Assembly (NCBI GenBank): GCA_030323885.1
Contig: JASIRB010003884.1
Coordinates: forward strand, 1 to 64,000
Reading direction: 5' to 3'
Source: Branchipolynoe longqiensis
Taxonomy: Eukaryota > Annelida > Polychaeta > Phyllodocida > Polynoidae
DNA length: 64,000 nt
Shown here: positions 25,651 to 53,639 of the stretch, piece after piece
How positions within the stretch are numbered: the first letter of the stretch is position 1
Layout: each line of letters starts with the position of its first letter
The notes under the pieces: generated by a model
The model's input: only the letters and a program-made list of their open reading frames with translations
What the model was told of the DNA's origin: nothing
Database searches by the model: none
Made by a program: the position numbers and the translations under genes

Positions 25651-25654
25651 GGTG

Positions 25655-28766: not shown

Positions 28767-28770
28767 AGGT
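28767..28770. repeat. Left target-site duplication AGGT of the 14.9-kb element
   Basis: AGGT here and at 43695-43698 flank the outer LTR ends. This fixes the LTR borders as TGTA...TATA. Confidence 0.8.
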
Positions 28771-28957
28771 TGTAAAAATATACGGATTTTCGGTTTAGAA
28801 TTAGATAGTGGCAGGGAGCATCTTTATTAGTAAATGACAGTGTTGTGACAATGTTATGTAAACTAACAAGTAAGGATGAGTTACGCAGCGTATGACATGA
28901 TATAAAGTAACGAAATATATGTCCTGTATGCTGCCTAGGATTGGAGAGGAGCTGTGT

Positions 28958-28965
28958 TATATAAG
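28958..28965 (+). promoter_or_regulatory. Candidate TATA box of the LTR promoter
   Basis: TATATAAG is conserved at the same place in the other two LTR copies ('gttatataag'). Upstream DNA is the presumed U3. The start site is not determined. Confidence 0.45.
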
Positions 28966-29021
28966 ATCCAGTTTAGGGGGATGGAAAAGTTCTCGGTTGA
29001 GTCCTAGCATGTGCCACCGCG

Positions 29022-29309
29022 GTGGAAGGAGGGCCAGGTTGTAGGGGAAAGCTGCCAAAGGATGGAAATTTCCTATGGTGCCTCCAAACATGTACCCGCA
29101 CCAAGGAAGGGACTTTCTCGGTCTCTATATATGGAGGTGTATGGATGAATGTAACTGTATCCAACTGCTGGTTCACCCCTGTGGCCGTAAGCGAGGCCCA
29201 GCCTCAGCCTTATTTGCATATATACTCTGGGTGGCACCTGCAGCTGAGTAGGGTGGTAACCACCTCCACTGGGGGGTTGGCTCCCACCCCAAGCTGTGGG
29301 GCCGCCTGA
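29022..29309 (+). CDS. 95-codon open frame within the LTR
   Basis: ATG at 29022 opens a frame that reads MEGGPGCRGKLPKDGNFLWC and contains VSIYGGVWMNVTVS and YLHIYSGWHLQLS. The solo LTR keeps the same 95-codon frame (45636-45923) with four or five replacements, and the 3' LTR keeps all but its start, which a ~60-bp deletion removed. I do not recognise the product. It lies downstream of the TATA box, so it would be the first ORF on the transcript. Preservation could simply reflect recent common descent. Confidence 0.25.
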   Translation: MEGGPGCRGKLPKDGNFLWCLQTCTRTKEGTFSVSIYGGVWMNVTVSNCWFTPVAVSEAQPQPYLHIYSGWHLQLSRVVTTSTGGLAPTPSCGAA

Positions 29310-29680
29310 GTGGCTGAGGGTGGAACTGCTCAGTCACCTACACTGCCTTGACTAACTGACCACACTAAATATAGGAGATGCACCGCATTTATCTAAATGA
29401 AGGATCGATGCTCCAGGCATCCTGGACACCGGCACTCTAGTCCTGGCTCTGGAGTGAAGCACACATACTCTTGAGCAGGAACCCCAGACACTCTGTCTGA
29501 TGCTACCTAAATTCACCTATTCAAATTGAGTGTATCCACAGCCATAGGACTCCTGTCCCATGGGCTGTGGGCACTGCTTTCAGTATACAGGCTAAGTGGT
29601 AATGAGAATTAGTGTGGACAGAAGGTGAGGAGTGCGGGTGCTAGGTCACATGTAGGGGAATGGACAGTAGTTGTTGCTCC

Positions 29681-29686
29681 AATAAA
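29681..29686 (+). terminator. AATAAA polyadenylation signal of the LTR
   Basis: 'ctccaataaagcac' occurs in all three LTR copies, about 170 bp before the LTR end. Confidence 0.5.
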
Positions 29687-29855
29687 GCACAACTTATTCA
29701 CTGTTCATTTGTGTGTCTAGTTTTCCTTCCTCTTTTCAGTACTGATTCATGAGTTGGTTTGATTAGGCTATTGGCATCACAGGTGATATGAAGGGGAGAG
29801 TTTCGTAATCTCACGGGGTGCTCACAGCGGCAGAGCATTCTTGTGTTTTTATAAT

Positions 29856-29873
29856 TGGCGACCACAACGAGAC
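29856..29873 (+). other. Primer binding site
   Basis: TGGCGACCACAACGAGAC starts two bases after the LTR end. TGG is the expected complement of the tRNA CCA end. The tRNA species was not determined; an Arg or related tRNA is a guess. Confidence 0.65.
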
Positions 29874-30241
29874 TGCGAGCCTCATGAAGACGAAGTGATG
29901 CGTGAGGACTGCGGGAAGTGCTGCGATGAGTGCCACGACCGGGGCGATGACAAACACCATCACGGGTCAGGTAGGGTCCGGGTTACTAAGAATGCTTGTC
30001 TGGAATGCTGGGTGTCGACGCGGGTGTGACATGATGTACCATGGTGTGAACGTATAGGCAGTACGGTGTATGTGAGCGTTACTATATATGTGTGGATACT
30101 ATTGTTGATATATGTATGTATGTGACCAGGGCAACACAACCACACGGCATACACACCGCCCGCATTCATACAATACACCACAAACACTAAGGAATGTGTG
30201 TGGAAATGCATATGTCCTGTGCAGAGGTATGTATGTAGGAG
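29874..30241 (+). other. Leader between primer site and the pre-gag frame
   Basis: No long frame. CAG|GTAGGG at 29968-29977 would fit a splice donor for a subgenomic env RNA, as retroviruses and gypsy use. This is speculation from one motif. Confidence 0.3.
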
Positions 30242-31168
30242 ATGGAATGGGAGTATGAGTACGAGGATGAAGGGTTTTGTGATGAACGGATCGTGTGGCT
30301 TGAGCCACCGCCCTTAATAGACCTGCCCATAGTGGTGCAGAGAGAACAGGAGGAAAACGAGTTAGAGGAGCAACTAAATTGGGATTGGGAGCATTCAGAA
30401 GAGGGAAAAGAGTTAGAAGAAGAACACCAACAGGTGCAGCGGTCAGTAAGGGCATGTGAAAAGGAAAAGGAAGAGTGTACCAGAGTATGGGAACAGGAGG
30501 CCTTAGACCGGGTGAGAGTGAGAGAAAGGGTAATAGAAATACAGTGGGATAGGATCCATTTGCTAGAGGAAGAATACCTGGAGATAGTAGAAAGAATTAA
30601 GGCAGATAGCGAGAAACAAAAGGAGAGAGAAGAGAGATATAGGAAAGAATAGAGAGAAATGGCTGAGTGGATCTGTGTGGAGGAGTATGAAGGGATTAAA
30701 GTGGGCATTAATCCATGGGAGGTACCATTTGTAATAGAATACGGCGCTGATGAGGGTTTTGAAGAGGAAATAGAGATTGTAGCTCCGATCCCAGCTCCAG
30801 ATTCGGATACAGATTCGGATACAGACTCAGAAACAGAGGAGGAGAGAGAGGTAGACTCCGACCTAGAACATAGATACGAGGAAATGCAAGAAGAAGAGCA
30901 GGACTTAGAGTTGGAGCAGCGATTAAAGTCATGGGGAGGTACCATAGACAGTAGACAAGTGGAAAGGGAAAGAGACCAGTATGTCGACTTAATGTGGGAG
31001 GTGGTAGCAAAGAAGGAACAATTCAAAAGGACATGGGCGCAGGAGGATTTTGAGGGGGTGAAGGAAGGCGAAAGACGGGCGGACAGACAGTATGAATATT
31101 ATTTGAGATTGGCGGATGCGGTCGGAGCGGTAGAAAACGAAATTCGGGAAGCAAGGCGGGAAGAATGA
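30242..31168 (+). CDS. Acidic coiled-coil pre-gag protein, interrupted by one TAG
   Basis: The frame runs from ATG 30242 to TGA 31166-31168, with a single in-frame TAG at 30650-30652 dividing it into 136 and about 172 residues. The downstream half restarts in the same frame at ATG 30659. The protein is highly charged: the first half has long E/R/K/Q heptad-like stretches (EEQLNWDWEHSEEGKELEEE) that predict a coiled coil. The second half has an acidic Asp-Thr/Ser repeat (DSDTDSDTDSETEEE), then another coiled region ending REARREE. No known domain is recognised. A frame before gag is not part of standard errantiviruses. It could be an accessory protein or an N-terminal Gag piece. TAG may be decay or readthrough. 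Confidence 0.5.
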
Positions 31169-31598
31169 ATGCAGGTGAAAAAGAATAGGATCGAGGTATC
31201 CTTTAGTTAGGACCGTAGGCCATTGTCCATCCAGTTCGGGCCTGCTATATAGATTTATAGGTAAAGTTGGGGGGTGTTGATAAACATTGTACGGCAGGGG
31301 TGAAAGGAAGTAGGCCACCGAGAGAGCTAGACCTGTTGCCAGCCTAGATGCATCAATCACCTACCCACAGCTGGACCGAGTTGTATCCAGCAGGGAGGCC
31401 GACCCGACGAGGTCAGCGGACCCGGGGCGTGTAAGTGCAGGGGAGTAACAACAGGAAGTTGTCGGGTGTGTTGAAATCAACCGATACAGGTTGGTTTGAG
31501 ATATAGCGCTGCCTTACTGTACTTAAAGTAACCGTGGGTAGATAAAAAGAAATAAACTGGATAGATTCAGATCTTCCAGGGACAGCTCCCGAGCTTCC
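31169..31598 (+). other. Spacer before gag
   Basis: No frame of note. Sequence is ordinary up to the gag ATG. Confidence 0.4.
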
Positions 31599-32759
31599 AT
31601 GGAAAAGGATTTAGATCGAAGGAGGGGCATTGTGCCAGATAACCGTACAGATAGCACCATGGCAGAAGCGGAATTTAATCGTGGGTTTGCCGACTGGTTA
31701 GCAAATGGAAGGGCAGCGGGACAGATACCCACAGATGGCGACCAGTTGCTGTATATGAGCAAATATGCAGCAGGGCAGTTAGAGTCACAGTCTAAGCTGC
31801 TTCGAGAAACCAGGGAGTTTGGAGTCGGTCTCAAGCAAGAGAAGGCGCAACTCCTGCGCGATAAGATAGTGGGAGAAGAAAGGCTGGCAATGAGACGAGA
31901 TCGGCTTAAAGAAGAAGAGAGAGCTGTAAGAGATCTCCGGGAGCAGGGCCGGCTGATCGCCACGGTGGATGGGTCCGATTTGGGGGTGTTGAGGACATGG
32001 GTAGAGCAGGTGGGCAGAGCAGGTAGAGTGGCTGGGGCAAGGGGAGTGGACGTAGTAAAGTTTGCACTCAGCCACTCCAAGGGCAACCTCCATGAGGTCA
32101 TATACTCAGTATATGAGAATGATGCAGATAGCTCATGGGAGGAGGTCAGGGAGCGCCTGGTTGGACTGTTCTTGACCGCCAGGGAAGCTACTGCCTTGGT
32201 GGATATCGTGTTCACCCTGAAGCAGGAAAAAGGAGAGCTGATGTCAGCATACTGTATGCGATACAGTATGGCTGTACAGAGAGCGTGGCCCGAGAAAGGG
32301 TTGGTAAAGATGGGCGCAGTACATGACATGGTGATTAAGAAGTTCGAGGACTCCTTGATTGAACCAGTAGTAAGGTTGGCAGTGCGCCTGGCCAAGGCGG
32401 GTATCCTAGAGGCTGCCATGACGGTGGCCAGGGAAAATGAGGAGGGACTGGCCGGGCCAGGGGGCAGGCTGAGCGGGGCGCATAGGAGGGAGGAGCCCAT
32501 GGAGATTGGGGCCATAGAAGGGCATGCCAGGGGGGAGCCCGGGGCGTCCGGCGTAGACAGGGCCGCCTTTAAAACACTCCAGGGTGAGATAAAAAGCCTC
32601 TGGAAAATGATGGTAGAGCGTGCCGAGCGCCCAGTGCAGGCTGCCCAGGTAGCAGTTGCACCGGCACAGCCCTCCACGGTGGTGGTACAGACTGCACCCG
32701 CACTACCCGGTAATAATCAGGGGAATAGAGGCGAAAATCGAAGGCGCCACGCCAGGTAG
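31599..32759 (+). CDS. gag: Gag (matrix/capsid part) of the errantivirus-like element
   Basis: ATG 31599 opens 386 codons to TAG 32757-32759. A second ATG at 31659 is possible. Residues ~60-115 are a charged coiled coil (LLRETREFGVGLKQEKAQLL). Residues ~120-250 form the capsid-like helical region, with the retroviral/gypsy pattern SWEEVRERLVGLF, then LKQEKGELMSAYCMRYSMAV. The C-terminal 80 residues are Ala/Pro/Arg-rich. The protein would assemble the particle and bind the genome. The nucleocapsid zinc finger is not in this frame; it lies directly downstream in the next frame. Either a programmed or a mutational frame change follows gag. Confidence 0.8.
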   Translation: MEKDLDRRRGIVPDNRTDSTMAEAEFNRGFADWLANGRAAGQIPTDGDQLLYMSKYAAGQLESQSKLLRETREFGVGLKQEKAQLLRDKIVGEERLAMRRDRLKEEERAVRDLREQGRLIATVDGSDLGVLRTWVEQVGRAGRVAGARGVDVVKFALSHSKGNLHEVIYSVYENDADSSWEEVRERLVGLFLTAREATALVDIVFTLKQEKGELMSAYCMRYSMAVQRAWPEKGLVKMGAVHDMVIKKFEDSLIEPVVRLAVRLAKAGILEAAMTVARENEEGLAGPGGRLSGAHRREEPMEIGAIEGHARGEPGASGVDRAAFKTLQGEIKSLWKMMVERAERPVQAAQVAVAPAQPSTVVVQTAPALPGNNQGNRGENRRRHAR

Positions 32760-32925
32760 TGGGTCGCTTTCCTAGACAGGGTTTTCAGGTCCCAGATACG
32801 GTCAGGTGTGAGTATTGTGCCCATAATTATCACCGAGATTTTATTCACACCCATCAACAAAGGTGTAGACAGGTGCGCCAGAACACACCCGTAAGGCGGG
32901 GTCCGGTGCAGTCGGGAAACTAGGT
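32760..32925 (+). CDS. gag: Nucleocapsid-type zinc finger in a shifted frame
   Basis: The frame beginning at 32762 carries C-EY-C at 32807-32818, followed by His residues (YHRDFIHTH) and a final Cys at about 32864, an atypical CX2C...H...C finger. Basic residues surround it (RCRQVRQ). The frame stops at TAG near 32921-32923. Position between gag and protease fits the nucleocapsid. It is neither in the gag nor in the protease frame, so at least two shifts separate it from its neighbours. Confidence 0.5.
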
Positions 32926-34119
32926 CAGGCATCAGATCTAAGGCCGTGTATTCAAGTGGAATTTGGCGGAATTTCATATTCAGGGCTCATTGATACTGGT
33001 GCCAGTAAAAGCATGATGAGAAGTAAAGTGTATAACGCATTAAAAAGTACAGGATATACAAAGGGCGAATTAGAGGAAGGACTGATGCTTCGCTCACTCT
33101 CGGGACATTTGATTCCTACAAGGGGAGTGGGGAAGGTCACCTTAGTGGGGGTTGAGTGTGATTTTTGTGTTGTGGGGGAGTTACAACATGATATCCTGAT
33201 CGGGACAGACGTCATGCAGCGGTGTGATGCGGTGCTGTCTTACACGGACATGAGTATTGTCCTGAATGGAGAAAAGCATAGGTGGTTTGGTACGGAGGCC
33301 ACATGTGCTAGTATATCGGGTATAGTATCGGAGGTGGAATACTGGAGAAGAAAATTCCCCACCGTGTTCCCCAAGCAGAGGGCTGCCCTGAATACCACCG
33401 ACGTGGTAGAAATGACCATAGACACTGGGGATGCCCGCCCCATTAATCAAAGGCCCTATAGAATACCACTCTCTAAGATGAAATTGGTGGAGCAGGAGCT
33501 GGAAAAGATGTTGAAAGAAGACATAATAGAGCCGAGCCGCAGTGCCTGGGCCAGTCCTGTTACGGTTGTACCAAAGAAGGATGGCTCTATTCGGTTATGT
33601 GGGGATTATAGGCGTCTAAATGAGGTGACTCATAAGGATGCCTACCCACTACCCAGAATTCAGGATATCTTCGACCAACTTTCGGGTGCCAAAGTGTTCA
33701 CCACAATAGATCTGAAATCAGGGTACTGGCAGGTGCGAATGCACCCAGACAGCAGGGAAAAGACGGCCATCAGTACCCACAGGGGACTGTTCCAGTTTAA
33801 ACGAATGCAGTTTGGTCTGACGAATGCGCCTGCGGTATTCCAGCGCATGATGAATTCCGTATTGGCCAAGTTCCTGGGCAAGTCATGTCTGATCTACCTG
33901 GATGATATAGTGATTTATTCCAGAAACGAAAATCAACACCGGGCACATGTGGCAGAGGTATTGGCCAACCTGGGAGAGCCGCCCCTGGTCATTAAAGAAT
34001 CCAAATGTTCCTTTGGCCTGCGGGAGGTTAAGTTGTTGGGTTTTGTGGTATGTGCGGAGGGTCTAAAAGCGGATCCCGATAAAGTGGCCGCGATCAGGGA
34101 TATGGCCCCCCCCCACTGA
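32869..34119 (+). CDS. pol: Protease and reverse transcriptase of the errantivirus-like element
   Basis: The frame is open from 32869. The first usual start-like codon is GTG 32956 and no ATG fits, as expected for a pol reached by frameshift. Protease: LIDTGASKSMM. RT: YRIPLSKMKLVEQELEKML, WASPVTVVPKKDGSIRLCGDY, TTIDLKSGYWQVRM, LFQFKRMQFGLTNAPAVFQ and the catalytic IYLDDIVIYS with Asp at 33901. The RT is a canonical Ty3/gypsy type. The frame breaks in a nine-C run at 34106-34114, and a TGA follows at 34117-34119. Homology continues at once in another frame (KKGVRRLLGSANYYR). Single-base slippage in the C run is the simplest cause, in the genome or in the assembly. Confidence 0.9.
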   Translation, partial: TGAPEHTRKAGSGAVGKLGQASDLRPCIQVEFGGISYSGLIDTGASKSMMRSKVYNALKSTGYTKGELEEGLMLRSLSGHLIPTRGVGKVTLVGVECDFCVVGELQHDILIGTDVMQRCDAVLSYTDMSIVLNGEKHRWFGTEATCASISGIVSEVEYWRRKFPTVFPKQRAALNTTDVVEMTIDTGDARPINQRPYRIPLSKMKLVEQELEKMLKEDIIEPSRSAWASPVTVVPKKDGSIRLCGDYRRLNEVTHKDAYPLPRIQDIFDQLSGAKVFTTIDLKSGYWQVRMHPDSREKTAISTHRGLFQFKRMQFGLTNAPAVFQRMMNSVLAKFLGKSCLIYLDDIVIYSRNENQHRAHVAEVLANLGEPPLVIKESKCSFGLREVKLLGFVVCAEGLKADPDKVAAIRDMAPPH

Positions 34120-34777
34120 TAAAAAGGGAGTACGTCGTCTGTTGGGATCGGCCAACTATTATAGATAGTTAATGGTGAATTATGCCGATGTAGTGGCACC
34201 ACTCACCAATTTGACGAAAAATGCTGTGAAATTTGAGTGGGGATCTGAGTGCCAGAAAGCCTGGAAAGAGTTGAAACAGCTCCTATTGGACTGTGTGATA
34301 CTTAAATTTCCCGATCCCACAAAACCATACAAACTCTATACAGATGCCTCCGATTACAGTATAGGTGCTATATTGGTACAGGAGGACGAGAATGGCATAG
34401 AAAGGCCAGTCCATTTGATTAGTGGACGGCTAAATGCAGCCCAACTGAATTATCCCACCATTGAAAAGGAGGCCTATGCTATGATATTTGCACTCATTAA
34501 ATTAAGACCTTATTTGTATGGTGCTGAGTTTGTGATCTATACGGATCATAAGCCTTTAAAATGTTTATTCCAGAAGGAAATGAAAAACAGCCGCCTACAA
34601 AGATGGGCTGTGTTGCTAGCCGAATATTCGGCCCCAATTCAGTATTTTGCGGGTGCTTCTAATGTATGGGCTGACATGCTGTCTAGGCTGAGACCCACTA
34701 TTGTAGCCGAGGAGCCCGAGCAGATGTCGGTGGTAGAAATGGCCGGCCTCGAGGAAGAAATGCCATTTGAATACTAA
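34120..34777 (+). CDS. pol: RT thumb end and RNase H of the errantivirus-like element
   Basis: In this frame the tether after RT is readable from 34120, but a TAG at 34166-34168 interrupts it; a clean frame restarts with ATG 34172. RNase H motifs: LYTDASDYSIGAILVQ, YPTIEKEAYAMIFAL and IYTDHKPLKCLF, which supply the Asp, Glu and Asp needed for RNA cleavage; the domain ends near WADMLSRLRP. TAA at 34775-34777 then stops the frame. The integrase follows in the same frame, so this stop is an in-frame interruption and not a natural end. Confidence 0.88.
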
Positions 34778-36865
34778 AATTTAGATCATGCAAACCTGCA
34801 GAGATTGCAGGCGGATACCACACAGGCAATCCTGGCAAGGGAGGATCAGGATGATTATATCCTGATGGATGGGTTAGTGTATTCACTAATACCGCCACCA
34901 GGGCGGAAGAGTTATCCCAGATTATTTTTGCCAAGAGAATACAGGGAACAAGTAGTCGAACGGGCTCATAAGGACGTTGGGCATATGGCAATGATGAAAA
35001 CACTGCAGAGGGTACAGGAGCATTTCAGATGGCCGGGCATGAGAGGAGATATCGCTAAATTTATAGCAAGATGCCGACCGTGCTCCTTAAATAGGGTGAA
35101 GCGGGATTATCCGCTACCCACGGAAATGCCACTTCCAGTAGCTCCCGGATTGTTGGTAGCAGCAGATCTGACAGGGCCATTCCCAGAAAGCCGGGAAGGA
35201 AATAAATACCTACTCTCGATAATAGACCACTGCACGGGATGGGTAGAGGTAAAAGCACTCCCGAATAAGTCAGCACAGGGGATCTATGATTATTTAGTGA
35301 GGGAGTACATACCCCGATATTCAGCACCAAAGGTTTTCCTAACAGATAATGGGCTGGAATTCAAAAATAAACTTATCGCGGGATATTTGGAAGAACTGGG
35401 TGTGGAGGTAAGACACACCACCCCATACCACCCACAATCTAATGGCATGGTGGAACGTTTCCATAGAACACTAAAAAGCATGCTGGCCAAATTGGTTAAT
35501 GCTAGGTCATCAGAGTGGGAGGAATATTTGGGGGATGCACTATTGGCATATAGATGCACGGCTCTGGGTCCCACTGGATTCTCACCATTCTATTTACAGT
35601 TTGGGAGACATCCAAATAAACCACAGTCCCATTTACTATACCGACAAACTGGGGAGGTGTCATCAAATGCCGCCAGGCGAATTGATGAATTAGCGGATTC
35701 GCTTCAGGAAGCAGTACGTAATAGGGCCATTAGTAGGCATTATAATACCGCCCGAGCGGTTAACAGGGCGAATGCACTGCAGTTAAAGGTGGGCGATGCA
35801 GTGTTGTTATTAGTTAATGAGCCAGGGCCATTGGACAGGCAATTTGATCCGGGCTTTATAGTGACGGATGTAAGGGGAGCTGTGATTACGGTAGTGGGCC
35901 CCGAGAACAAGAAAAGAGTAGTGAATAGGGATCAAGTGAAGCTGGCAGATGGGGAGATGGAATGGGATATGATTAATTCCAGATTGACCCGGGGTCAAAG
36001 AAAAAAGCAAAGGCTGCAGCAGAAGCAGTCTCGGAATCAACCGCATATGGCTAGGGATGCACAGTTGGGAAATCATAATGCTGGCCAGTTGCCACATCGG
36101 CAGCTTCAAGGGCGAGTACCTAGTACATTCAGAGATTGCGGGAAGTTCAAGGGAGTGAGCGAGCGTAGTGACCGGGGATTGAACCCAAGCAATGCGGGCC
36201 ATAGCAAACCCGGAGATAGCCAGCGTGGTGACCGAGGATTGAACCCAAGCAATGCGGGCCATAGCAAACCTGGAGGTAGCCAGCATGGTGACCGAGGATT
36301 GAACCCGGCCGATGCGGGCCATGATCACCCAGGAGATAGTGAAGGGATGCCTGGGGGTTCAGGAAACGCAAAGGGCAGGCAGGGGGCATTGGACCGCACA
36401 GATGGTGAAATAGAGAGTGCATGGAGTGATCGGCATGTAGTGACTGAGAGGAATGGCAAGGCATGTGTGAGTGGGGAGGGTGATGATGATTGCATGGGTG
36501 AGAGTGAAGGGTTGACTGATGGTACTGATGTGTTGCGCACGTGTTTGCTTCCCCGGTATTCCGGACAGGTGTTGGGGCGGGATGAGCAGAGCTCAACCCG
36601 TGAACCCATGAACTCGACCCGTGAACCCGTGAACCCCAGTCGACCCGTGAACCCGGCCAGCCGGCCGCGGGGCTGTAAAAGGAGCTACACCCCCTCCCCC
36701 GAGGCGACGAGTGTGGGGGCAGGCCCGAGGGAGGCGTGGCGTGAGATAGGGCGATATATGGTGAGTGCGCCCCGGCAGATGCCCACGCGGCGCACACACC
36801 ACCCCTGCAGCGCGCGGACTGGTCAGCCACCCCCCCCACCACGCACCCACGCCACGCGGAGCTGA
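34778..36865 (+). CDS. pol: Integrase with a long repeat-bearing C-terminal tail
   Basis: The same frame as RNase H, open from 34778; first ATG 34805 (686 residues). Zinc module: H..KDVGH (residues ~58-64), then CRPC (~97-100). Catalytic core: Asp in VAADLTGPF (~121), Asp in LTDNGLEF (~181), Glu in GMVERFHR (~217), exactly the DD35E spacing, all three intact. A C-terminal SH3-like/GPY-F region contains LKVGDAVLLL and DPGFIVTDVRG (~330-360). From about residue 400 a tail of nearly 290 residues extends beyond usual integrases, with three 20-residue repeats (36170-36349) and Pro/Arg/Ser-rich low complexity. The frame ends after a C-rich stretch at 36830-36840, and similar composition continues in the next frame to 37166. 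Confidence 0.88.
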   Translation, partial: NLDHANLQRLQADTTQAILAREDQDDYILMDGLVYSLIPPPGRKSYPRLFLPREYREQVVERAHKDVGHMAMMKTLQRVQEHFRWPGMRGDIAKFIARCRPCSLNRVKRDYPLPTEMPLPVAPGLLVAADLTGPFPESREGNKYLLSIIDHCTGWVEVKALPNKSAQGIYDYLVREYIPRYSAPKVFLTDNGLEFKNKLIAGYLEELGVEVRHTTPYHPQSNGMVERFHRTLKSMLAKLVNARSSEWEEYLGDALLAYRCTALGPTGFSPFYLQFGRHPNKPQSHLLYRQTGEVSSNAARRIDELADSLQEAVRNRAISRHYNTARAVNRANALQLKVGDAVLLLVNEPGPLDRQFDPGFIVTDVRGAVITVVGPENKKRVVNRDQVKLADGEMEWDMINSRLTRGQRKKQRLQQKQSRNQPHMARDAQLGNHNAGQLPHRQLQGRVPSTFRDCGKFKGVSERSDRGLNPSNAGHSKPGDSQRGDRGLNPSNAGHSKPGGSQHGDRGLNPADAGHDHPGDSEGMPGGSGNAKGRQGALDRTDGEIESAWSDRHVVTERNGKACVSGEGDDDCMGESEGLTDGTDVLRTCLLPRYSGQVLGRDEQSSTREPMNSTREPVNPSRPVNPASRPRGCKRSYTPSPEATSVGAGPREAWREIGRYMVSAPRQMPTRRTHHPCSARTGQPPPPPRTHATRS
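36170..36349 (+). repeat. Three 60-bp tandem repeats in the integrase tail
   Basis: Units start at 36170, 36230 and 36290 and encode DRGLNPSNAGHSKPG-type 20-residue repeats. Period 60 keeps the reading frame. The third unit is the most diverged. Confidence 0.85.
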
Positions 36866-37166
36866 GGGCACTGCACAGGGCGGTACTTCACCTAGCACCG
36901 GCGCAGACAGCGGCCGAGTAGAGCATGCGTCCCTGGAGGCAACCCGAGATTTAGGCTATCGCCGCACAAGCACAGGAGCGACCAAGCGCCCACCGCCACC
37001 TCCGGATAACGGTCAAACCTATAGCACACGAGTGTTACGGTCCCACACCCGAGAGAAGACGAGGCTGCTGGAGATAGTCCCACACCCAGAGGAGCAACAG
37101 TTGGCCAAGCGCGCCTGCATTGCTTGTGTGGAGGTCTTCTGTGGAGGCCCCTACAGGAGGGAGTAG
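36866..37166 (+). CDS. Possible continuation of the pol tail in another frame
   Basis: An open frame (formally from 36765) overlaps the end of the integrase frame and ends with TAG 37164-37166. It encodes a basic Pro/Thr/Arg-rich segment with KRPPPPPDNGQTYSTRVLR and a Cys-containing end (KRACIACVEVFCGG). The C runs at 36830-36840 could have caused a shift from the integrase frame. There is no known domain. Confidence 0.3.
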
Positions 37167-38740
37167 AGTGTGTGTATGCGTGAAGGTTATATATAAATTC
37201 ACGAAATCGGTCATAGAGGACACAGGATATTACACACACTAAACAGTCCTATGGTGAGTCACGGTAAGAGTAAGTGCCAAAGATAGACTGGGTGGAGCCA
37301 GCACTCATAGACATTGGTGAAGTTCCACAGTAGGTGAGGGTTCGACACACATGGTGCGTTGACAGAGATTTAAAAGGAAATGGTGTGCAAGCGCAGATTG
37401 AGTCTAATCCGTAAGATACATCACCTAGTCATACCAGCTGTTGAAACAGACATTGTGTTAAGATAAAGCCAGATGAACATTGTATGGCGTGGCAGACCGG
37501 TGCGTTCTAGAGGGATGGTATTGTGCTTTGCCTGAGGACAATGATCTGACATTAGATACACAGACATTTAGTAAGTGTTGCAGTGCATGACAGACGTTGT
37601 GTGGTCGTGCTGCTCGCAGTGATCAGTATCATATATAAATATATATAATTGTATTGTATGTAAAGCACCGAAGCGCTCAAAGGAGATAGCTGCAGGAGCA
37701 TGGTGCTTTCATATAGGTGTTGAGGGGTGTACGGTGCCTTATGTGTTGCTAGGAGGCTAAACACCACATCAGCGCGGGATTTAAAACCCAAGAGGCAACC
37801 ACCGTTCAGGCCGAGCTGATACGAATAAGTAGAGGATAACACGAACATTGAGTGCAGTCCCTGCCGTAAGGGGCGCAACGGAGTAGGCGTTGTCATTGAT
37901 GCAGGCTTGTGAGTGCCTACAGCGTGTCTAGGAAAAGAAAGCTCCACAGGAAGGCGGCGACCTAGGAGATTAGAGAGGAGGTCGTGATTATATGAGCATA
38001 CGTATTGGCTGGTGAATATCAGCAGAAGTGATCATTTCACGAGAAAATAGGTGCTGATGGTGCGTACATGAACATTGTGTGCACTCCAGAAGCAAGGAAA
38101 TGATTTATAAATTGTTATTAGCTACTGATTAGAATTAACATAGACATTGGTGTTTCTATCTACTGCTAAAAATACAGTGAGTATTTACATGAACGGTGCC
38201 AGGTTAGAGCAGCAGGCGGGTGCCGATCGCGTGTGGAGGCTAAACGCTTGACCTCTGAGGCCACGGTCAAGGCTGGCCTAGAGAGGCCGCAGGAGTGGAT
38301 ATAGGTCAGACGGCGTCCCGTTTAAACTAGGTCACCAGGGTCGCTTGCACCGCCGTGAAGACTAGACGTAGAGCGTATGCAAGTCTGAGAGGAGGCGGAG
38401 TGAGCCGGCCAGCGAGCGAGGAGAAGAAATAGGTACGGGAATTCAGTGTGCAGTCAGTAGGAAGACAATAATGTAGACACGCTAGAGTGTGTGTGGTGGA
38501 GGCCAAGGCATGCGTGAAGGACGGAAAGTGAGTGGAGCGCGCCAGGAAAATAAAGGTGAAGTGACATCGCGGTGGATTGCGCCCGTTGGTGAGTTGTTCG
38601 GGATATACCAGGTCGGTGTCTGCAAGGATTGGCAGTGTCGGGATTGATAGGAGGATCTGCCGGGTCGCACTCCCCAGATAGTGCTGCATGATAAGATTTC
38701 TGGAAACTTATCGCCCGGACACTGCATATTAGTGTCAATC
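37167..38740 (+). other. 1.6-kb spacer between pol and env
   Basis: No convincing frame on either strand. The minus-strand open stretches at 38327-39243 lie antisense to env and its leader and have no domain. A splice acceptor for env would be expected here: 'cactgcatattag' at 38721-38733 is a candidate. Confidence 0.4.
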
Positions 38741-38751
38741 CGATTTGTACC

Positions 38752-39078
38752 ATGTGGTATTTGTACTGGCAGGTGGGCGTCATCTGGTGCTGCCTGCCAG
38801 CGGGCAACAGCACCGACCTGTTTAAGGAGGATGGTGTTCTGGTGGAAAGCCAGGGTGAGGTGAGGACAGTGTCTGCGGTGTGGCAACTGGTGGTGCTGAT
38901 CACACCGCCGGAACGACCACCGGTCGGACAATGGATCGCACAAGCTCGGGAGCTCATGGACATGTTGAAGGTGGCACGGTGGTATGTTGGCGTTCATCAT
39001 TGGGAAAAGAAGCTGGATTTCCTGCGGAGGAAGGTGCAGGAGGATACCGCACAGGGGGTCCGTCCGAGGGCGCAGCGA
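38752..39078 (+). CDS. env: Envelope N-terminal (F2-like) subunit
   Basis: ATG 38752 begins with a hydrophobic, signal-peptide-like stretch (MWYLYWQVGVIWCCLPAG). The region DGVLVESQGEVRTVSAVWQL followed by VVLITP resembles the start of baculovirus F proteins and gypsy-type Env, where a short strand motif precedes 'W-x-LVV'. A cluster of Leu/Lys/Arg helices leads to a basic site, RPRAQR, at 39061-39078, which fits furin-type R-x-x-R cleavage. The subunit is about 109 residues, a short F2 as in F proteins. The frame (open to 39165) loses register immediately after the cleavage site, in a G run at 39079-39082. The product would mediate attachment and fusion if intact. Confidence 0.65.
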
Positions 39079-39079
39079 G

Positions 39080-39652
39080 GGGATTGCGGCAGTGGGGGAG
39101 GCGGCATCATGGATGTTTGGGACGGTAAGCCAGGCACAACTGAACAAGGTGCAAAATGCTGTTAGTACCCATAGCCTACAGACGCAGGCCCTGAGGCATA
39201 ACCAACAGCATATGCTTTCAATGATGGATCGAACAAGGAACATTCAGATACAATTGGCCGAGCATGTGTCATTGGTGGAGCGGATGATGAAAGCGGCACA
39301 GAAAGAAACAGAGGAAGGCTTGCAGTTGGGCAGGGAGGTTGAGCTGGTGTTGCGCGTAAGACTCGTGGTGGACGAAATTGAGAATGTAGTGGACAATTAT
39401 GTGGCTAAAAAGGCCCTACACCATCGCATGGTGATGCAGCTAGAGCGCGGAATGTTGACAGAGATACTGTTGATGCCGGCGCAGCTGGCATGGGTGATAA
39501 AGGCGGCGGAAGATGCGGGATTTCAAGGTCTCGACCCCCATTGGTATTACCAACACGCAAGCGTGGAGCCAGTGTGGGTCCGGACGCCGCGGTGGGCTTC
39601 CACGTGGGGATACAGATGGTCAGCCCCGACACGTATTGGGCGTACCACTTGA
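39080..39652 (+). CDS. env: Envelope fusion subunit, first part (shifted frame)
   Basis: In the second frame the sequence right after the cleavage site is a small, Ala/Gly-rich hydrophobic segment ending ASWMFGT, matching the fusion-peptide pattern of F-type proteins (Gly/Ala-rich, then LFGT). A long helical region with QAQLNKVQ, LRHNQQHMLSMM and VERMMKA follows, typical of the heptad-repeat A coiled coil. Family register is kept to about 39575. From there the frame becomes nonsensical and stops at 39650-39652, while the homologous sequence goes on in the first frame. It would drive membrane fusion in an intact copy. Confidence 0.65.
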   Translation, partial: GIAAVGEAASWMFGTVSQAQLNKVQNAVSTHSLQTQALRHNQQHMLSMMDRTRNIQIQLAEHVSLVERMMKAAQKETEEGLQLGREVELVLRVRLVVDEIENVVDNYVAKKALHHRMVMQLERGMLTEILLMPAQLAWVIKAAEDAGFQGLDPHWYYQHASVEPVWVRTPRWASTWGYRWSAPTRIGRTT

Positions 39653-40530
39653 CATATCTGCCGGTGCTGCTGGACGCGGAACATATAAGGACGGTTGTGG
39701 GTAGGTCGGTGGTAGCAGTGAGCACGAGAAGGACGGCAAGCTTCTATCCTGAGGCATGCATGGGCAGTGTGCCAACCGTATGCTATCCTGCGATGGAATC
39801 GACCTATCAGAGCTGCGAAGCGGCGCTCGTGACGGGAACGAAGCCCGAGGACTGCAGGCTTCGAATCAGCAAGATTCAAAAGACGGTGTCAGCCACCGTG
39901 GTGGCACCTCGAGAGGGCATGGGTCAGGTGAGCATAGCTCCCCATGAGCCTCAGTTGAACGTCAGGATTCGTTGTGTGGAGAAGCCCGCGATCAACAAAA
40001 TCATCGCTGGCCCGACGTTCCTGGAAGTGCCCGAGGGATGCACGGTGGAGGGGAGAGGCTGGCTGTTGAGAACATTGACCGTAAAGCATGAGACAGTGAA
40101 CATTAAAACAATGCCGGCAAGGTTGGAACTGCCAGCCTTGAATGTCTCATGGTCTCCTGCCCTCCACCGAGTGATGAAGGAGCAGCTCGAGTGGCTGCCA
40201 GAGCTGCAGGTGCCCCTGATGTCAATGGACGGTCTAGTGGAGGTGCCGGACGATTACGTCCGTGTGGAACATTTTAGCACATTGTGGTATTGTCTGTTGG
40301 GTGCCGCTGGCATCATTGTTTTGGGTTGTACCATCTTGATGTGTTACAGGTGCAGGAAGAAAGGTAAGGGATGGATAGGCCCAAGAAAAAGGCAGAGCAA
40401 AGAAAAGAGGATGCACGAGATGAGAGAGCCTACTGCTCCCTCCTCGTTGTTGGTAGCAGCAGAGAGTAGGGTGGCGGAGGATCCGGATGGAGCAGTGTTG
40501 GAGTTGGCCGAGCTGCCGTTTAGGGGATAA
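39575..40530 (+). CDS. env: Envelope fusion subunit, second part with membrane anchor
   Basis: Frame 1, formally open from 39490 but in family register from about 39575, ends at TAA 40528-40530. It has a Cys-rich ectodomain in the order expected for F/Env proteins: YPEACMGSVPTVCYP, SCEAALVTGTKPEDC, a further pair around IRCVEKP and EGCTVEG. A second helical region is MKEQLEWLPELQ. One transmembrane helix is at about 40282-40350 (WYCLLGAAGIIVLGCTILM), followed by a basic stop-transfer (CRKKGKG) and a cytoplasmic tail of about 60 residues. This type-I topology confirms a viral-type glycoprotein. Two frame changes in total mean no functional protein is made here. Confidence 0.75.
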
Positions 40531-42652
40531 AAAGGGTAGTAGTGTAGGTGGTCAGCGCCCGTAAAATCGGAACCGACAAATGACGGGGATGAGCGGGGAC
40601 ACTGGATAGGTTACATAGTAATTAAGACAAGTTCCGAGCGATCTACGAAAGGTAGCGGATGTCGCGATTCATTATATACAGTCGTCGGCCATCAGAACCA
40701 AGAAGGGGAGGGATGAGCAGGGACGTTGTATCAATTTCGAAAAGGAAATAGTATATATCACTTCGGCATAAGTAATCGATCAGAATTGACCGATGTTATG
40801 TACCGGAGTGCTAATCGCTCGGAACCGCTAGAGCTTGCCATCAGGGATTTCTAGTCACCTACTCCTAGCCCCTCCCAAGCCTTTCGGACGGGCGACGGGT
40901 GGCTGACAGGGGATCCTGGTAGTGCTCGGGGTATTAGGGAATAACGGGAAATTAGGCTCCCCGCCCATCCCACAGGTAACAAGTAAGGGGGGGAGGATTT
41001 AATTAACAGTTGAGTACCTCTCTGTTTCCTGCTTGTAGGAGACAAGTATAAGGGGGGGGGAAGCTAATTATGACAATTGGTCGTCCCTCGGATTCCTGCT
41101 TGTGAGGAACCCGCAGTAGCAAAGTAAGGGGGAGAGGATTTAATTAAACATTATGCACCTCTCTGATTCCTGCTTGCATGGAACTGGCGTGGGTATAGCC
41201 ATGGGAAGGTCGTAGCGGCCACCCGACCCATCGGCGCAGAATGAGCCATAGACGAGTTCGCGCCTCGGGCTGCTCATAGGATCGAACGGGGCGATGCTGT
41301 CCGGCAGGGACGAGTCCGCGTGTAGAAGGATCAACAATGGGAGTGAGAAAGGAAGTAAGGAGAGAGGGGAGAGGATTAGGATCATAGGATCGAATGGGGC
41401 GATGCTGTCCGGCAGGGACGAGTCCGCGTGTACAAGGATCGAAATGGAAGAAAGAAAGGAAGGAAGGAGGGAGATGACAGGATTAGGATCATGGGATTGA
41501 TCGTGGATGCGGAATTGACGGGGTCAAGAAGACGTAAGGCCACAAGGCTGACGGGGTCAGTAGATTGACGTGGTCAGTAGATTGATGGGGTCAGTAGATT
41601 GAGGGGGTCAGTAGATGCAGGGAACCAACCGGTGGTTGCAAAAGAAGATTGAGTGTCTTGGAGTAGTTGTAGAGAGGGGAACTGGTTGATTGGGGCCATT
41701 CAGGGGATGGAGCAAGTGGTCGATGATTGTTAGAAGCAAGCATGGCTGAGAAATGGTTTATTCATTATCTGTCTTGGATAATTGTTGAGTCATTAGGTGG
41801 CATGCTAAACAAGGTCGCATTAATGGATCAATCACTGATAGAGATATTTCAAGTTATTGTCTTATGCAAGATCTGCCCTGTCATGGTTCCCTGCTTGTGT
41901 TGCTATTCTGTCCTGCTTACCCTAGTTTTTTAAAATTCATTGTTACTTTATTTTTATTTTTAATTATCACGAGTTTTAAAGGGGGCCTGGGCGCGCAAGA
42001 GAATTGGCACACACAACCCGGACAGTGACAGGAGGATAAAAGACATCTTTGCAGGATATCAGTGTGATATTGATTAAGGTTATAATATCAATGTAATATC
42101 GGTCAGTGTTATAATATCAATGTCATATTGGTTAATGTCGAATATCAAGGTCATATGCATTCCTTGTAGAATATCGATGTAATGTTAATTCAATTCAGAA
42201 TCTCCATGCTATATGTATTGCTTGTTAGGAGCAATGTATAGTAATGAAGGGGAGAGTGAAACTAGTATAGATAAGTAGTAACCTAGCCGGTTCAAAGCCA
42301 TCGTCTCCAGTGGGACCGCCATCCTAAAGATAGATTTTGGGGCTGTTCTTGTCTAAAAACCAGTACTTTCAACAAATAGATAGGAATGGTCTTCAAGGTG
42401 GTGGCGAACTGGAGAAAGACAGAAAATTACTAGAAAAGGGGGTTAACAGTGAATAAGGGAGGAGTGGCCAAGAGGAAGGGACAATATACTTAAGTTAAAA
42501 TAGGATGCATGCGCATGCAAGGAGGAGGCTAACAAATCTTATAAAGTGTTGTAACATTCATACGGCCCCCGGGTATGGCACTCGCTCTGGCTTGTCCGCA
42601 AAAGACATAATGTTTAAGGTCTTCCATTTTGCTTGTCCTTTTTGCCCAAGTA
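40531..42652 (+). other. Repeat-rich 3' region of the provirus after env
   Basis: No gene. 40980-41170 holds three similar ~65-80-bp blocks ('aagtaaggggg', 'tttaattaa', 'cctctctgattcctgcttg'). 41276-41490 holds two ~110-bp direct repeats containing 'ggggcgatgctgtccggcag'. 41545-41620 has about four ~20-bp units of 'ggggtcagtagattga'. 42050-42190 has loosely repeated 'atatcaatgt'. This kind of 3' repetition could be regulatory or replication-slippage sequence. Confidence 0.6.
41276..41490 (+). repeat. Two ~110-bp direct repeats
   Basis: 'ataggatcgaacggggcgat' at 41276 and 'ataggatcgaatggggcgat' at 41385 start two near-identical units, each with 'ggacgagtccgcgtgtac/g' and 'aaggatc'. Confidence 0.85.
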
Positions 42653-42667
42653 GAAATGGAAGAGGGA
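42653..42667 (+). other. Polypurine tract
   Basis: GAAATGGAAGAGGGA lies three bases before the 3' LTR, the expected plus-strand primer site; it holds a single T. Confidence 0.65.
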
Positions 42668-42670
42668 CGT

Positions 42671-43694
42671 TAGAAAAATATACGGATTTTCGGTTTAGAA
42701 TTAGATAGTGGCAGGGAGCATCTTTATTAGTAAATGACAGTGTTGTGACAATGTTATGTAAACTAACAAGTAAGGATGAGATAATCATAGTATGACATGA
42801 TATAAAATAACGAAATATATGTCCTGAATGCTGCCTAGGATTAGAGAGGAGCTGTGTTATATAAGAACCAGTTCAGGGTGTTGTAGGGGAAAGCTGCCAA
42901 AGGATGGAAATTTCCTATGGTGCCTCCAAACATGTACCCGCACCAAGGAAGGGACTTTCTCGGTCTCTATATATGGAGGTGTATGGATGAATGTAACTGT
43001 ATCCAACTGCTGGTTCACCCCTGTGGCCGTAAGCGAGGCCCAACCTCAGCCTTATTTGCATATATACTCTGGGTGGCACCTGCAGCTGAGTAGGGTGGTA
43101 ACCACCTCCACTGGGGGGTTGGCTCCCACCCCAGCTGTGGGGCCGCCTGAGTGGCTGAGGGTGGAACTGCTCAGTCACCTACACTGCCTTGACTAACTGA
43201 CCACACTAAATATAGGAGATGCACCGCATTTATGTAAATGAAGGATCGATGCTCCAGGCATCCTGGACACCGGCACTCTAGTCCTGGCTCTGGAGTGAAG
43301 CACACATACTCTTGAGCAGGAACCCCAGACACTCTGTCTGATGCTACCTAAATTCACCTATTCAAATTGAGTGTATCCACAGCCATAGGACTCCTGTCCC
43401 ATGGGCTGTGGGCACTGCTTTCAGTATACAGGCTAAGTGGTAATGAGAATTAGTGTGGACAGAAGGTGAGGAGTGCGGGTGCTAGGTCACATGTAGGGGA
43501 ATGGACAGTAGTTGTTGCTCCAATAAAGCACAACTTATTCACTGTTCATTTGTGTGTCTAGTTTTCCTTCCTCTTTTCAGTACTGATTCATGAGTTGGTT
43601 TGATTAGGCTAATGGCATCACAGGTGATATGAAGGGGAGAGTTTTGTAATCTCATGGGGTGCTCACAGCGGCAGAGCATTCTTGTGTTTTTATA
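42671..43694 (+). repeat. 3' LTR (1024 bp)
   Basis: Matches the 5' LTR throughout but lacks about 60 bp (corresponding to 28978-29038). It starts TAGAAAAATATACGG where the others have TGTAAAAATATACGG, so the terminal TG is altered. It ends TTTTTATA and is followed by AGGT. Confidence 0.9.
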
Positions 43695-44829
43695 AGGTGT
43701 CTATGTATTCCAGCCTATTTGCTGCGGGCCAGCTGGATAGGCCTTGTGGCGCCACCATGCACCCATTTCGCCATTCCTACCTGTACTCAGTGCTCATTCG
43801 CACCTGTATTTTACTATATATGTGCTCTATAATCCATTATGGGAATTTAAACAAGGAGACTACCTATCTTCAGTTCCCTATGTAATAGGATAGCACTGTA
43901 TCCTATCTAACTGCCTCTGTGTAGTATGACATGGGCCACACTGGCGCCACCTGTGAGGGGCTCTAGGCACTGTATGCCAGCTGCGCTTGGCCGTTAACGC
44001 CTATAGGCCCGTCGGGACAGTCAACACATACGTCAGACCTGCTTTCCATTTGTTTCCATCACGACCACGACACGACCACGACACGACGCGATACTATACA
44101 TAGAACACTACACCCTTCATTATCCATTCTATTTATAACCTCCTATACTATCAAACTATAGGTAGAAGCTGGTTGTAATGAACCTTAGGGTAATTATTCA
44201 ATATGATTGCGCTGTTAGTAAGCGTACACATACCGATTGTGTCCCAGCCATATGTATGAATATGTATTTAAGCTATGCACTAGTAAACATGGGGAGACTG
44301 GCCGATGTATTTTATTCGGAGATTGCATATTCATACATCTTCATATACGCTGTTTGAAAGGTGTCGACTGAGCCATCAGTTAACACTTTATTGGTAATAT
44401 CTATGATAATCTTTGTTGTCAAAACCCCTCTGTCTGGCCCAACACATTAGTGTGATACAGCAGGGCACGACCCCCTGCATGGGAATGACATTCATGTTTA
44501 ACACCACCTGACTGAGTTATCCTTACTTTCCTAATATATGAGACCAATGGCTTAGGTTTTCCTGGTTTGCAGTAATGTTTTGTTGAGTTTAAAAAGATTA
44601 CTTTTAATTATTTTATTTATATATACTTCTTAATCTGTCTTTTGGTCAAACAGAGGTACCAACTGATTTAGGAATTGATCTTCAACATCTAGAGTGGGAC
44701 ATTGCACAGTTATAAGTTGTTGGCTGATGCCTGGCATGCAGAGGACATTGATGCAGGTTGGAGAGTAACGTTTGGATCCTGTATCGAACGATTCATGGCT
44801 GGGAATGATCCTATTTAATACTGTCATGG
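43695..44829. other. no gene seen
   Basis: Begins with the AGGT target duplication. A short direct repeat 'cacgaccacgacacgaccac' occurs at 44061. Nothing else is recognised. Confidence 0.4.
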
Positions 44830-45001
44830 GGGTGATGAAAATGGGAAATATTGCGCCTAGAGTGGGACTCGAACCCAGATCTCTTTGCATTCCGGGCCAG
44901 TGTGCTAACCATTACACCACCTAGGCTCCCTGATATCAACACACTACCCACGCCTACTTGTCTATATGGCTCCTTGCCTGAGAGGACAGTGCAGACCACT
45001 A
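44830..45001 (-). mobile_element. SINE-C copy 1 (tRNA-derived), minus strand
   Basis: On the minus strand: CCTAGGTGGTGTAATGGTTAG (box A, like tRNA-Gln/Glu) and GGGTTCGAGTCCC-like box B, then 'gcgcaatatttcccattttc'. The tRNA-like part is at 44858-44928. It shares its flanks with the copy at 45148, so it is a SINE and not a tRNA gene. Confidence 0.65.
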
Positions 45002-45147: not shown

Positions 45148-45322
45148 GAGTGATGAAAATGGGAAATATTGTGCCTAGAGCGGGACTCGAACCCACATCT
45201 CTTTGCATTCCGGGCCAGTGTGCTAACCATTACACCACCTAGGGTCCCTGATATCAACACACAACCCACGCCTACCTGTCTATGTGGCTCCTTCCCTGAG
45301 AGGTCAGGGCAGATCACGACAG
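45148..45322 (-). mobile_element. SINE-C copy 2, minus strand
   Basis: About 95% like copy 1 by eye over the whole unit, including 'cctgatatcaacacac' and 'acccacgcctac' upstream of the head. Box B is GGGTTCGAGTCCC. Confidence 0.65.
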
Positions 45323-45382: not shown

Positions 45383-46471
45383 GCATTGTAAAAATATACG
45401 GATTTTCGGTTTAGAATTAGATAGTGGCAGGGAGCATCTTTCTTAGTAAATGACAGTGTTGTGGCAATGTTATGTAAACTAACAAGTAAGGATGAGATAC
45501 GCAGAGTATGACATGATATAAAGTAACAAAATATATGTCCTGCATGCTGCCTGGGATTGGAGAGGAGCTGTGTTATATAAGATCCAGTAGGGGGATGGAA
45601 AAGTTCTCGGTTGAGTCCTAGCATGTGCCACCGCGGTGGAAGGAGGGCCAGGTTGTAGGGGAAAGCTGCCAAAGGATGGAAATTTCCTATGGTGCCTCCA
45701 AACATGTACCCGCACCAAGGAAGGGACTTTCTTGGTCTCTATATATGGAGGTGTATGGATGAATGTAACTGTATCTAACTGCTGGTTCACCCCTGTGGCC
45801 ATAAGCGAGGCCCAACCTCAGCCTTATTTGCATATATACTCTGGGTGGCACCTGCAGCTGAGTAGGGTGGTAACCACCTCCACTGGGGGGTTGGCTCCCA
45901 CCCCAGCTGTGGGGGCCGCCTGAGTGGCTGAGAGTGGAACTGCTCAGTCACCTACACTGCCTTGACTAACTGACCACACTAAATATAGGAGATACACCGC
46001 ATTTATGTAAATGAAGGATCGATGCTCCAGGCATCCTGGACACCGGCACTCTAGTCCTGGCTCTTGAGTGAAGCACACATACTTTTGAGCAGGAACCCCA
46101 GACACTCTGTCTGATGCTACCTAAATTCAGCTATTCCAATTGAGTGTATCCACGGCCAGCGGACTCCTGTCCCCTGGGCTGCGGGCACTGCTTTCAGTAT
46201 ACAGGCTAAGTGGTAATGAGAATTAGTGTGGACAGAAGGTGAGGAGTGCGGGTGCTAGGTCACATGTAGGGGAATGGACAGTAGTTGTTGCTCCAATAAA
46301 GCACAACTTATTCACTGTTCATTTGTGTGTCTAGTTTTCCTTCCTCTTTTCAGTACTGATTCATGAGTTGGTTTGATTAGGCTAATGGCATCACAGGTGA
46401 TATGAAGGGGAGAGTTTTGTAATCTCACGGGGTGCTCACAGCGGCAGAGCATTCTCGTGATTTTATAGCAT
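45383..46471 (+). mobile_element. Solo LTR of the giant element, with GCAT target duplication
   Basis: LTR 45387-46467 (1081 bp), from TGTAAAAATATACGG to GTGATTTTATA, flanked by GCAT at 45383-45386 and 46468-46471. It keeps the segment deleted in the 3' LTR at 42671, so it is closer in structure to the 5' LTR. The distinct target duplication proves an independent insertion, later reduced by LTR-LTR recombination. It keeps the 95-codon frame at 45636-45923. Confidence 0.9.
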
Positions 46472-52932: not shown

Positions 52933-53068
52933 ACAAAACAGAACCTCCACAGCATTTGGTGCACCCGAAAGCACTAATATCATTTACTGCTTTTGAGTCT
53001 GAGGCAATAACAGTGAACGCGTAAGATAAACAACATATTTGTTAACATTAAAAACATCATAGTGATAC

Positions 53069-53514
53069 CTTTTTCTTGATCTTGTTCTGGGAGCGCACCT
53101 CCGACTCGATGCGCTCCCCAGGAATGGCTGAAGACCACAACTGGTAGATGATGAGTGAGTAAGTGATAGTCATGATGACGACGGGCAGGAAGTAGAGCAC
53201 CACGGAAATGAACGTGTAGTAGACCATACGATGTGGGTGCGAGACGACCGTCATGTTTGTCACCGCCTCCATTGTGTTCTGCACCGGCCATGTGTCCTGG
53301 CACCAGATCTCTGTGTGGTTCAGCCAGTGGCGCGTGTCCTGCTCACGGAATATCAGCATTGGTGAGGATATGCTGATGGCGACGATCCAAATAAGGAGAA
53401 GCGACGCCGTTGAGCGGCGCTCGGTCATGTAGGCCTTCATCGCAAAGACGATGCCAAAGAACCGGTCACATGAGATGAGGGTGAGCGTCAAGATGCTGGA
53501 GACGAGTGACAGCA
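53069..53514 (-). CDS. Internal exon of a rhodopsin-family (class A) neuropeptide-type GPCR
   Basis: Minus-strand exon from acceptor TTTTCCAG|TG (AG at 53516-53515) to donor AAAAAG|GTATCA (GT at 53068-53067): 446 bp, entering in mid-codon and leaving at a codon boundary. It encodes the end of TM3 with the DRY-type motif as DRF (LTLTLISCDRFFGIVFAMK), TM4 (LLLIWIVAISISSPMLIF), an extracellular loop with two N-glycosylation sites (NHT, NMT) and the conserved Cys in IWCQDTW, and TM5 (YYTFISVVLYFLPVVIMTI). It ends in loop 3 with KIKKK. TM1-2 and TM6-7 should lie in flanking exons that I cannot see. The loop pattern suggests a peptide receptor of the orexin/NPY/trissin-like group. It couples ligand to G proteins at the plasma membrane. 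Confidence 0.85.
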
Positions 53515-53639
53515 CTGGAAAACCAATGGAGTAGCGGTTAGATTCAAGATCAAAATTTCAAAGTGTTTTTTTAACTTATTTTTGTGTGAAATTTATTTGA
53601 GGGAAGAATAATTTGTGCAACCCAGCTGTTGTAGGATCC

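Follow-up and report, generated by a model that had tools for sequence, protein, structure and literature searches.

A 14.9-kb env-bearing Ty3/gypsy provirus in Branchipolynoe longqiensis whose extra length is a family trait

Errantivirus, a genus of the International Committee on Taxonomy of Viruses (ICTV) first described from insect hosts, comprises elements that are usually 7-9 kb long. As described in the available parts of PMC4276936 and PMC12992720, these endogenous retroviruses of insects (gypsy, ZAM; Metaviridae) and their non-insect relatives combine long terminal repeats (LTRs) with a gag-pol frameshift, an F-type Env as third open reading frame (ORF) and a spliced env mRNA, and the accessible text of PMC13172572, citing Chary and Hayashi 2025, reports env-bearing gypsy elements as widespread over metazoan phyla. 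Here we analyse a stretch of 64,000 nucleotides from the polychaete Branchipolynoe longqiensis (assembly GCA_030323885.1, contig JASIRB010003884.1, positions 1 to 64,000; referred to as the window), in which an LTR element of 14,924 bp at 28771-43694 encodes protease, reverse transcriptase, RNase H and integrase (PR-RT-RH-IN) and a separate env. An initial annotation made from the sequence alone had proposed an env-bearing Ty3/gypsy provirus of about 14.9 kb at this place, and its elements were all recovered: the LTR pair aligns, AGGT stands on either outer side, a primer site directly follows the 5' LTR, and pol and env lie between. In the respects named above the element would resemble errantiviruses, while it differs from them in its size (~14-15 kb here, ~17 kb in a sister subfamily), in a two-ORF region ahead of gag (pre-gag), and in a long integrase tail, a spacer and a post-env region. 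We consider it highly probable that it is a decayed member of an animal family of env-bearing Ty3/gypsy proviruses (Metaviridae) present in multiple copies, the whole mechanism proposed below included. The following features were assigned, in order along the window:

28767..28770, no strand: target-site duplication (TSD) AGGT, left
28771..29853, plus strand: 5' LTR, 1083 bp, with TG...TA ends
29855..29873, plus strand: primer binding site (PBS), TGGCGACCAC..., directly after the 5' LTR and present in several copies
29968..29976, plus strand: candidate env splice donor CAG/GTAGGG, a motif conserved in the leaders compared
30242..30652, plus strand: pre-gag ORF a, 136 amino acids, its terminal TAG conserved in the window and in 8/8 fetched close copies
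30659..31168, plus strand: pre-gag ORF b, 169 amino acids, its ATG 6 nt past the TAG of ORF a
31599..32923, plus strand: gag region, frame broken near 32756, ending in GGGAAAC-TAG at 32914-32923
32869..34116, plus strand: pol piece with protease and reverse transcriptase (YLDD), from Pfam
34169..34774, plus strand: pol piece with RNase H, from Pfam
34778..36862, plus strand: pol piece with integrase (H2C2, DD35E) and the first part of the long tail, with 60-bp repeats
36765..37163, plus strand: final part of the pol tail, in a different frame; it belongs to the open pol frame of other copies, and the relative P0001 ends similarly
37170..38751, plus strand: spacer between pol and env, its 3' part the putative env leader by analogy with the sister subfamily
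38752..40530, plus strand: env region, frames broken here; relatives of ~600 amino acids have, by eye, a transmembrane segment besides a furin-type site and F-like fusion peptide
40531..42670, plus strand: post-env untranslated region, kept in 8/8 fetched close copies
40980..41187, plus strand: three tandem 67-nt hairpin modules (40980-41046, 41047-41113, 41121-41187)
42651..42668, plus strand: polypurine-rich tract, GAAATGGAAGAGGGACG, ahead of the 3' LTR
42671..43694, plus strand: 3' LTR, 1024 bp
43695..43698, no strand: TSD AGGT, right

The extra length is a trait of the family and not of this single copy. In the window's own 1.85-Gb assembly, where the window is contig C872, the spacer was found at nearly full length at 8 other places among 29 scored candidates; these 8 close copies were fetched, in two stretches each, and every segment of the window element was matched to them separately. 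Gag, PR-RT, RH, IN, the integrase tail, spacer, env, the post-env region and the 3' LTR follow in the same order in all 8, and pre-gag is whole in 5 of them and interrupted by a 500-N gap in the other 3. The enlargement that the initial annotation had ascribed to a whole lineage is found with its extra segments in the same places in every fetched close copy. Large deletions occur within env and the integrase tail of one copy (C11:30.79 Mb), and a rearranged place on C14 (L018) was left out of the copy count. Both LTRs were compared in five copies, the window's included: four carry matching TSDs, all different (AGGT, ACCC, ACCT and AGCA), and measure 14,924, 13,776, 14,643 and 14,723 bp, and in the fifth (C5:100.4 Mb) the start of the 5' LTR is damaged and no matching duplication is present. 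The four different TSDs argue against a single segmental duplication as the origin of the copies. What weighs against the full count is that three copies (C7:50.53 Mb, C7:5.46 Mb and C4:49.10 Mb) agree at every position of 7,077 bp on the upstream side and 4,810 bp on the downstream side; this identical block of ~11.9 kb adjoins 500-N gaps, and the LTRs of the three differ by several percent. In all likelihood the assembler used a single sequence at three places, and we therefore count about 6 independent copies.

The window copy is structurally complete, with LTRs, TSD and gene set in place as initially annotated; its completeness does not extend to coding capacity, since the frames of gag, pol and env are all broken. 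It has the LTRs and the pol order PR-RT-RH-IN of Metaviridae (the protease below the curated cut-off), and the short TSD of that family, here of 4 bp, was found in 4/5 copies examined. This anatomy and the copies show that genomic RNA is reverse-transcribed from the PBS after the 5' LTR and that integration of the new copies makes 4-bp duplications. The two LTRs differ by 18 substitutions over 1024 aligned columns (Kimura two-parameter distance 0.018), in addition to 59 gap columns. The start of U3 (28771-28978 versus 42671-42878), within which 59 bp are absent from the 3' LTR, is several times more diverged than the remainder, with ~10 differences in the first 205 bp as against 6 in 817 bp elsewhere (p 2e-4, counts derived from BLAST percentages), and this higher divergence suggests that sequence may have been exchanged patchily with a further copy there. 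The family is also represented by a solo LTR 1.7 kb downstream of the provirus, at 45387-46467, which shares ~97% identity with the 5' LTR and is flanked by its own duplication GCAT.

The pol motifs proposed initially were retrieved, with Pfam matches to reverse transcriptase (RVT_1, 9.6e-37), RNase H (RT_RNaseH, 2.9e-38) and integrase (Integrase_H2C2, 5.2e-16; rve, 1e-11), YLDD and D-D-35-E recognised by eye in the translations, and protease matches under the curated cut-offs. In the window, the pol frame changes between 34116 and 34169, meets a stop at 34775-34777 and carries its tail in another frame at 36765-37163. In the window, as in those copies that were read, GGGAAAC-TAG closes gag, and the -1 frame of pol runs open across this point. 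GGGAAAC is of a known slippery type, and the overlapping-frame anatomy is what synthesis of Gag-Pol by -1 frameshifting at this site, just ahead of the gag stop, would use. Among the 8 fetched copies, gag is open over 460 amino acids in 7, a 1454-amino-acid stretch of pol in 4 and env over 616 amino acids in 6 (5, 2 and 4 of 6 if the three look-alike copies are taken as one), so that open-frame copies of each gene exist.

Upstream of gag, ORF a and ORF b lie in one frame, and the ATG after the TAG, in a GAAATGG context, is kept in the window and in 8/8 fetched copies. Essentially full-length pre-gag was found at 24 places including the window, among 40 scored of 70 candidates, with 7 places at 94-100% and 17 at 82-86% identity; the TAG and ATG are also kept in C5:105.35 Mb, the one member of the 82-86% subfamily that was read. 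Between C13:9.35 Mb and C5:105.35 Mb, the ratio of nonsynonymous to synonymous substitution rates (dN/dS) amounts to 0.15 in ORF a, 0.14 in ORF b and 0.10 in gag, as compared to 1.2 and 1.5 in out-of-frame controls (ORF a alone, on 102 and 108 codons). The two ORFs look like selected genes, under purifying selection; ORF b might be translated by stop-restart or readthrough at the conserved TAG. An additional stop early in ORF b of copy C5:100.4 Mb speaks against this assignment. A Pfam search of the pre-gag ORFs gave no family at cut-off, and a homologue search with ORF b gave 0/40 candidates at E 1, its size limits being such that longer fused forms could be missed. ORF a and ORF b, which might conceivably be duplicates of each other, are 24% identical over 74 amino acids (E 0.005, in a single comparison of charged sequences). 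Both ORFs are absent from a third, more distant subfamily (C15:18.93 Mb), where tblastn over the 5' region did not find pre-gag, and pre-gag is therefore a trait of part of the lineage.

The post-env region may owe its conservation to one of two causes. Its block 40801-41300 is 83-95% identical to members of the distant subfamily on C8 and C15, with flanking 100-bp intervals at 0.58-0.71, and the 67-nt modules within it carry a purine-pyrimidine stem. On the basis of these modules we suggest that the block could be an RNA signal for export or packaging. Recombination between subfamilies is as likely a cause of the high identity as an RNA signal, and by itself comes only slightly short of an even chance. 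It would account for the leap of identity to 0.83-0.95 over the block with a drop on either side, as well as for the lack of excess folding stability, which also counts against an RNA signal: the block folds no better than shuffled sequences (z -0.95, 21/100 shuffles as good). Recombination accounts less readily for the paralogous hairpin modules, which keep their pairing by two-sided changes at 4/16 predicted pairs, although at several of the pairs one or two units have lost the match. This covariation was scored on 10 of 15 distinct units, five near-duplicates being left out.

The env gene lies separately after pol, as initially proposed; it is broken in the window copy, where it is distributed over two frames, and it is open as a separate ORF in the 6 of 8 fetched copies noted above. 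Four Env relatives, 54-64% identical to the window's env piece, show by eye a signal peptide, RPKR or RPRR followed by GL...VG...LFGT, a helical stretch and a C-terminal transmembrane segment. RPKRGL was read in three open Env frames from the genome and RP(K/R)R-GL in 7 Env relatives, and dN/dS of env between subfamilies is 0.25-0.26. The F-like character given to Env in the initial annotation would hold in kind, in that Baculo_F matches 7/7 Env proteins with E values not above 0.1, the best being 1.9e-4, alongside the furin-type site and fusion peptide. Two observations weaken it: every Baculo_F match lies under the Pfam curated cut-off, and the AlphaFold2 prediction for an Env relative, from an alignment of 4, has a mean predicted local distance difference test score of 33. 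A PDB sequence search with a single Env gave no match, and a search with a 7-sequence Env profile gave three designed dTor proteins and one unrelated enzyme, which we judged to be chance matches.

The likeness to Errantivirus is drawn from env, with a Baculo_F match below the cut-off, and from anatomy, and the pol of another Ty3/gypsy clade might have captured an F-like env independently, so that the element would be errantivirus-like by convergence. An integrase search returned 294 matches; among the 120 listed, those with names come from fish, sponge, sea slug, sea cucumber and chytrid at ~30-40% identity, and none is a named insect gypsy or errantivirus. This absence and the TG...TA ends of the LTRs would fit independent capture. 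Most of the matches are unnamed, however, and 8000 word-sharing candidates were scored, which makes the absence weak, and the F-like env, spliced env and -1 frameshift are shared with errantiviruses; we regard convergence as unlikely, though as a contender to be taken seriously. A scan of viral_contigs with env and integrase gave no relatives.

Other enlarged elements are set apart from this family by several features. Ogre elements carry an ORF before gag. As far as the available text of PMC6431247 goes, Ogre and related plant elements are enlarged Ty3/gypsy elements with extra ORFs, and Burro, the giant gypsy element of planarians, is an enlarged animal Ty3/gypsy element with LTRs and an env-like region showing env homology. 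Unlike the present family, Ogre occupies plant hosts and has much longer LTRs (1.9-6.5 kb), and Burro has a giant polyprotein with env between gag and pol, as compared to a separate env after pol here. The same source gives lengths of >30 kb for Burro, 16-25 kb for Ogre and 17 kb for foamy-like fish endogenous retroviruses, and the proposal that an element of 14.9 kb is among the largest Ty3/gypsy genomes is not upheld. Troyka and the Kuafuorterviruses are LTR elements of animals that were formerly classified with Gypsy; according to the accessible parts of PMC12440569 and PMC11673190 most are 5-6 kb long, their TSDs measure 3 bp, they carry an xADD motif, and Troyka ends in CG...CG; identity with them is ruled out by the 4-bp TSD, the TG...TA ends, YLDD and the ~15 kb found here.

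The spacer is explained, by analogy, as an env leader through an element of the sister subfamily at C8:8,682,131-8,689,680 (L019:8198-10000 and L020:1-5747), which consists of LTR, leader, env and LTR without gag or pol over 7,550 bp. Its LTRs are 99.5% identical over 951 bp, its duplication is GGGT and its env is open over 614 amino acids. The leader is joined to the spacer at GAGTG/TGTGG. Unspliced relatives show the acceptor as TTTTGTTGTTGTAG/TGTGG in 3/3 (L021, L025, L026) and the donor as GAGTG/GTACGG in 3/3 reaching there (L027, L028, L029), a further one (L030) diverging 3 nt before. Given a one-nucleotide ambiguity of the junction, the deletion fits a GT...AG intron, which points to the element being a reverse-transcribed and integrated spliced env mRNA; with two complete LTRs and a PBS, it would stem from retroviral-type reverse transcription and not be a copy processed by long interspersed nuclear elements. 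An ordinary internal deletion by template switching or recombination, involving no spliced RNA, could likewise leave a single copy whose junction is shiftable by one nucleotide, but of the two ways to place the junction one gives precisely GT...AG, its acceptor being pyrimidine-rich, and unspliced relatives retain both borders intact, so that such a deletion is very improbable. For the window's own subfamily, spliced env is inferred: F-like fusion Env would be made from an mRNA in which the leader is spliced to the spacer's 3' part. This extension has to reckon with a junction spanned at 1/26 scored places, in one copy of a sister subfamily without pre-gag, and with the window's own spacer, in which no strong acceptor stands out. 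The mechanism as such is not new, spliced F-type env being already known in errantiviruses and gypsy env being made from spliced mRNA (PMC4276936, PMC12992720, in the parts available). Another sister-subfamily copy, at C15:18925502 to ~18942710, spans ~17.2 kb (if its 3' LTR is 950 bp long), with a leader of ~4 kb and no pre-gag.

Hardly credible, finally, is an origin of the excess length by nested insertion or capture in one ordinary 7-9 kb gypsy element, for although the window is repeat-rich and direct repeats occur within the post-env part, the segments are identically placed in 8/8 fetched close copies, copies with different TSDs measure 13.8-14.9 kb, and copies without pre-gag, spacer and post-env segments, which would point to such an origin, were looked for among the 8 and not found. 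The extra length would instead be made up of the two-ORF pre-gag, the long integrase tail, the spacer with the env leader and the post-env region with its hairpin modules, the latter possibly acting in RNA export or packaging.

The surroundings of the provirus hold several further features. Just upstream lies a minisatellite (25652-28023) in which a 48-bp unit recurs ~49 times and the GC skew is extreme (0.9). Between provirus and solo LTR, two tRNA-Ser(GGA) genes on the minus strand (44853-44926 and 45171-45244) both lie inside a duplicated unit of ~180 bp. An RNase H fragment at 2419-3048 on the minus strand is probably from another retroelement. The exon of a rhodopsin-type G-protein-coupled receptor at 53060-53557 on the minus strand (7tm_1, 4.6e-22) appears to be the best sign of an animal host in the window. 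Telomere-type repeats in the host genome amount to 225 exact matches for TTAGGG and 47 for TTAGG, the 47 and the listed TTAGGG places being interstitial.

Judged by its sequence, the family would be a new, enlarged variant of the errantivirus-like kind, and it shows that a gypsy provirus with env can owe its great length to causes that are identifiable and stably kept throughout its family, namely a pre-gag gene under selection and extended untranslated stretches with a link to RNA processing. More doubtful is the joint proposal that the family has its own two-protein accessory gene upstream of gag, expressed by stop-restart or readthrough, that tandem hairpins downstream of env act as an export-type element, and that spliced env mRNA can be packaged, reverse-transcribed and integrated, such that env-only proviruses might provide Env in trans. 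As a record of env splicing in genomic DNA, readable without RNA data, the integrated spliced copy assigns a function to the spacer. Should pre-gag prove to be an accessory gene, the family would make it testable whether Metaviridae have gained such genes in parallel to the complex retroviruses.

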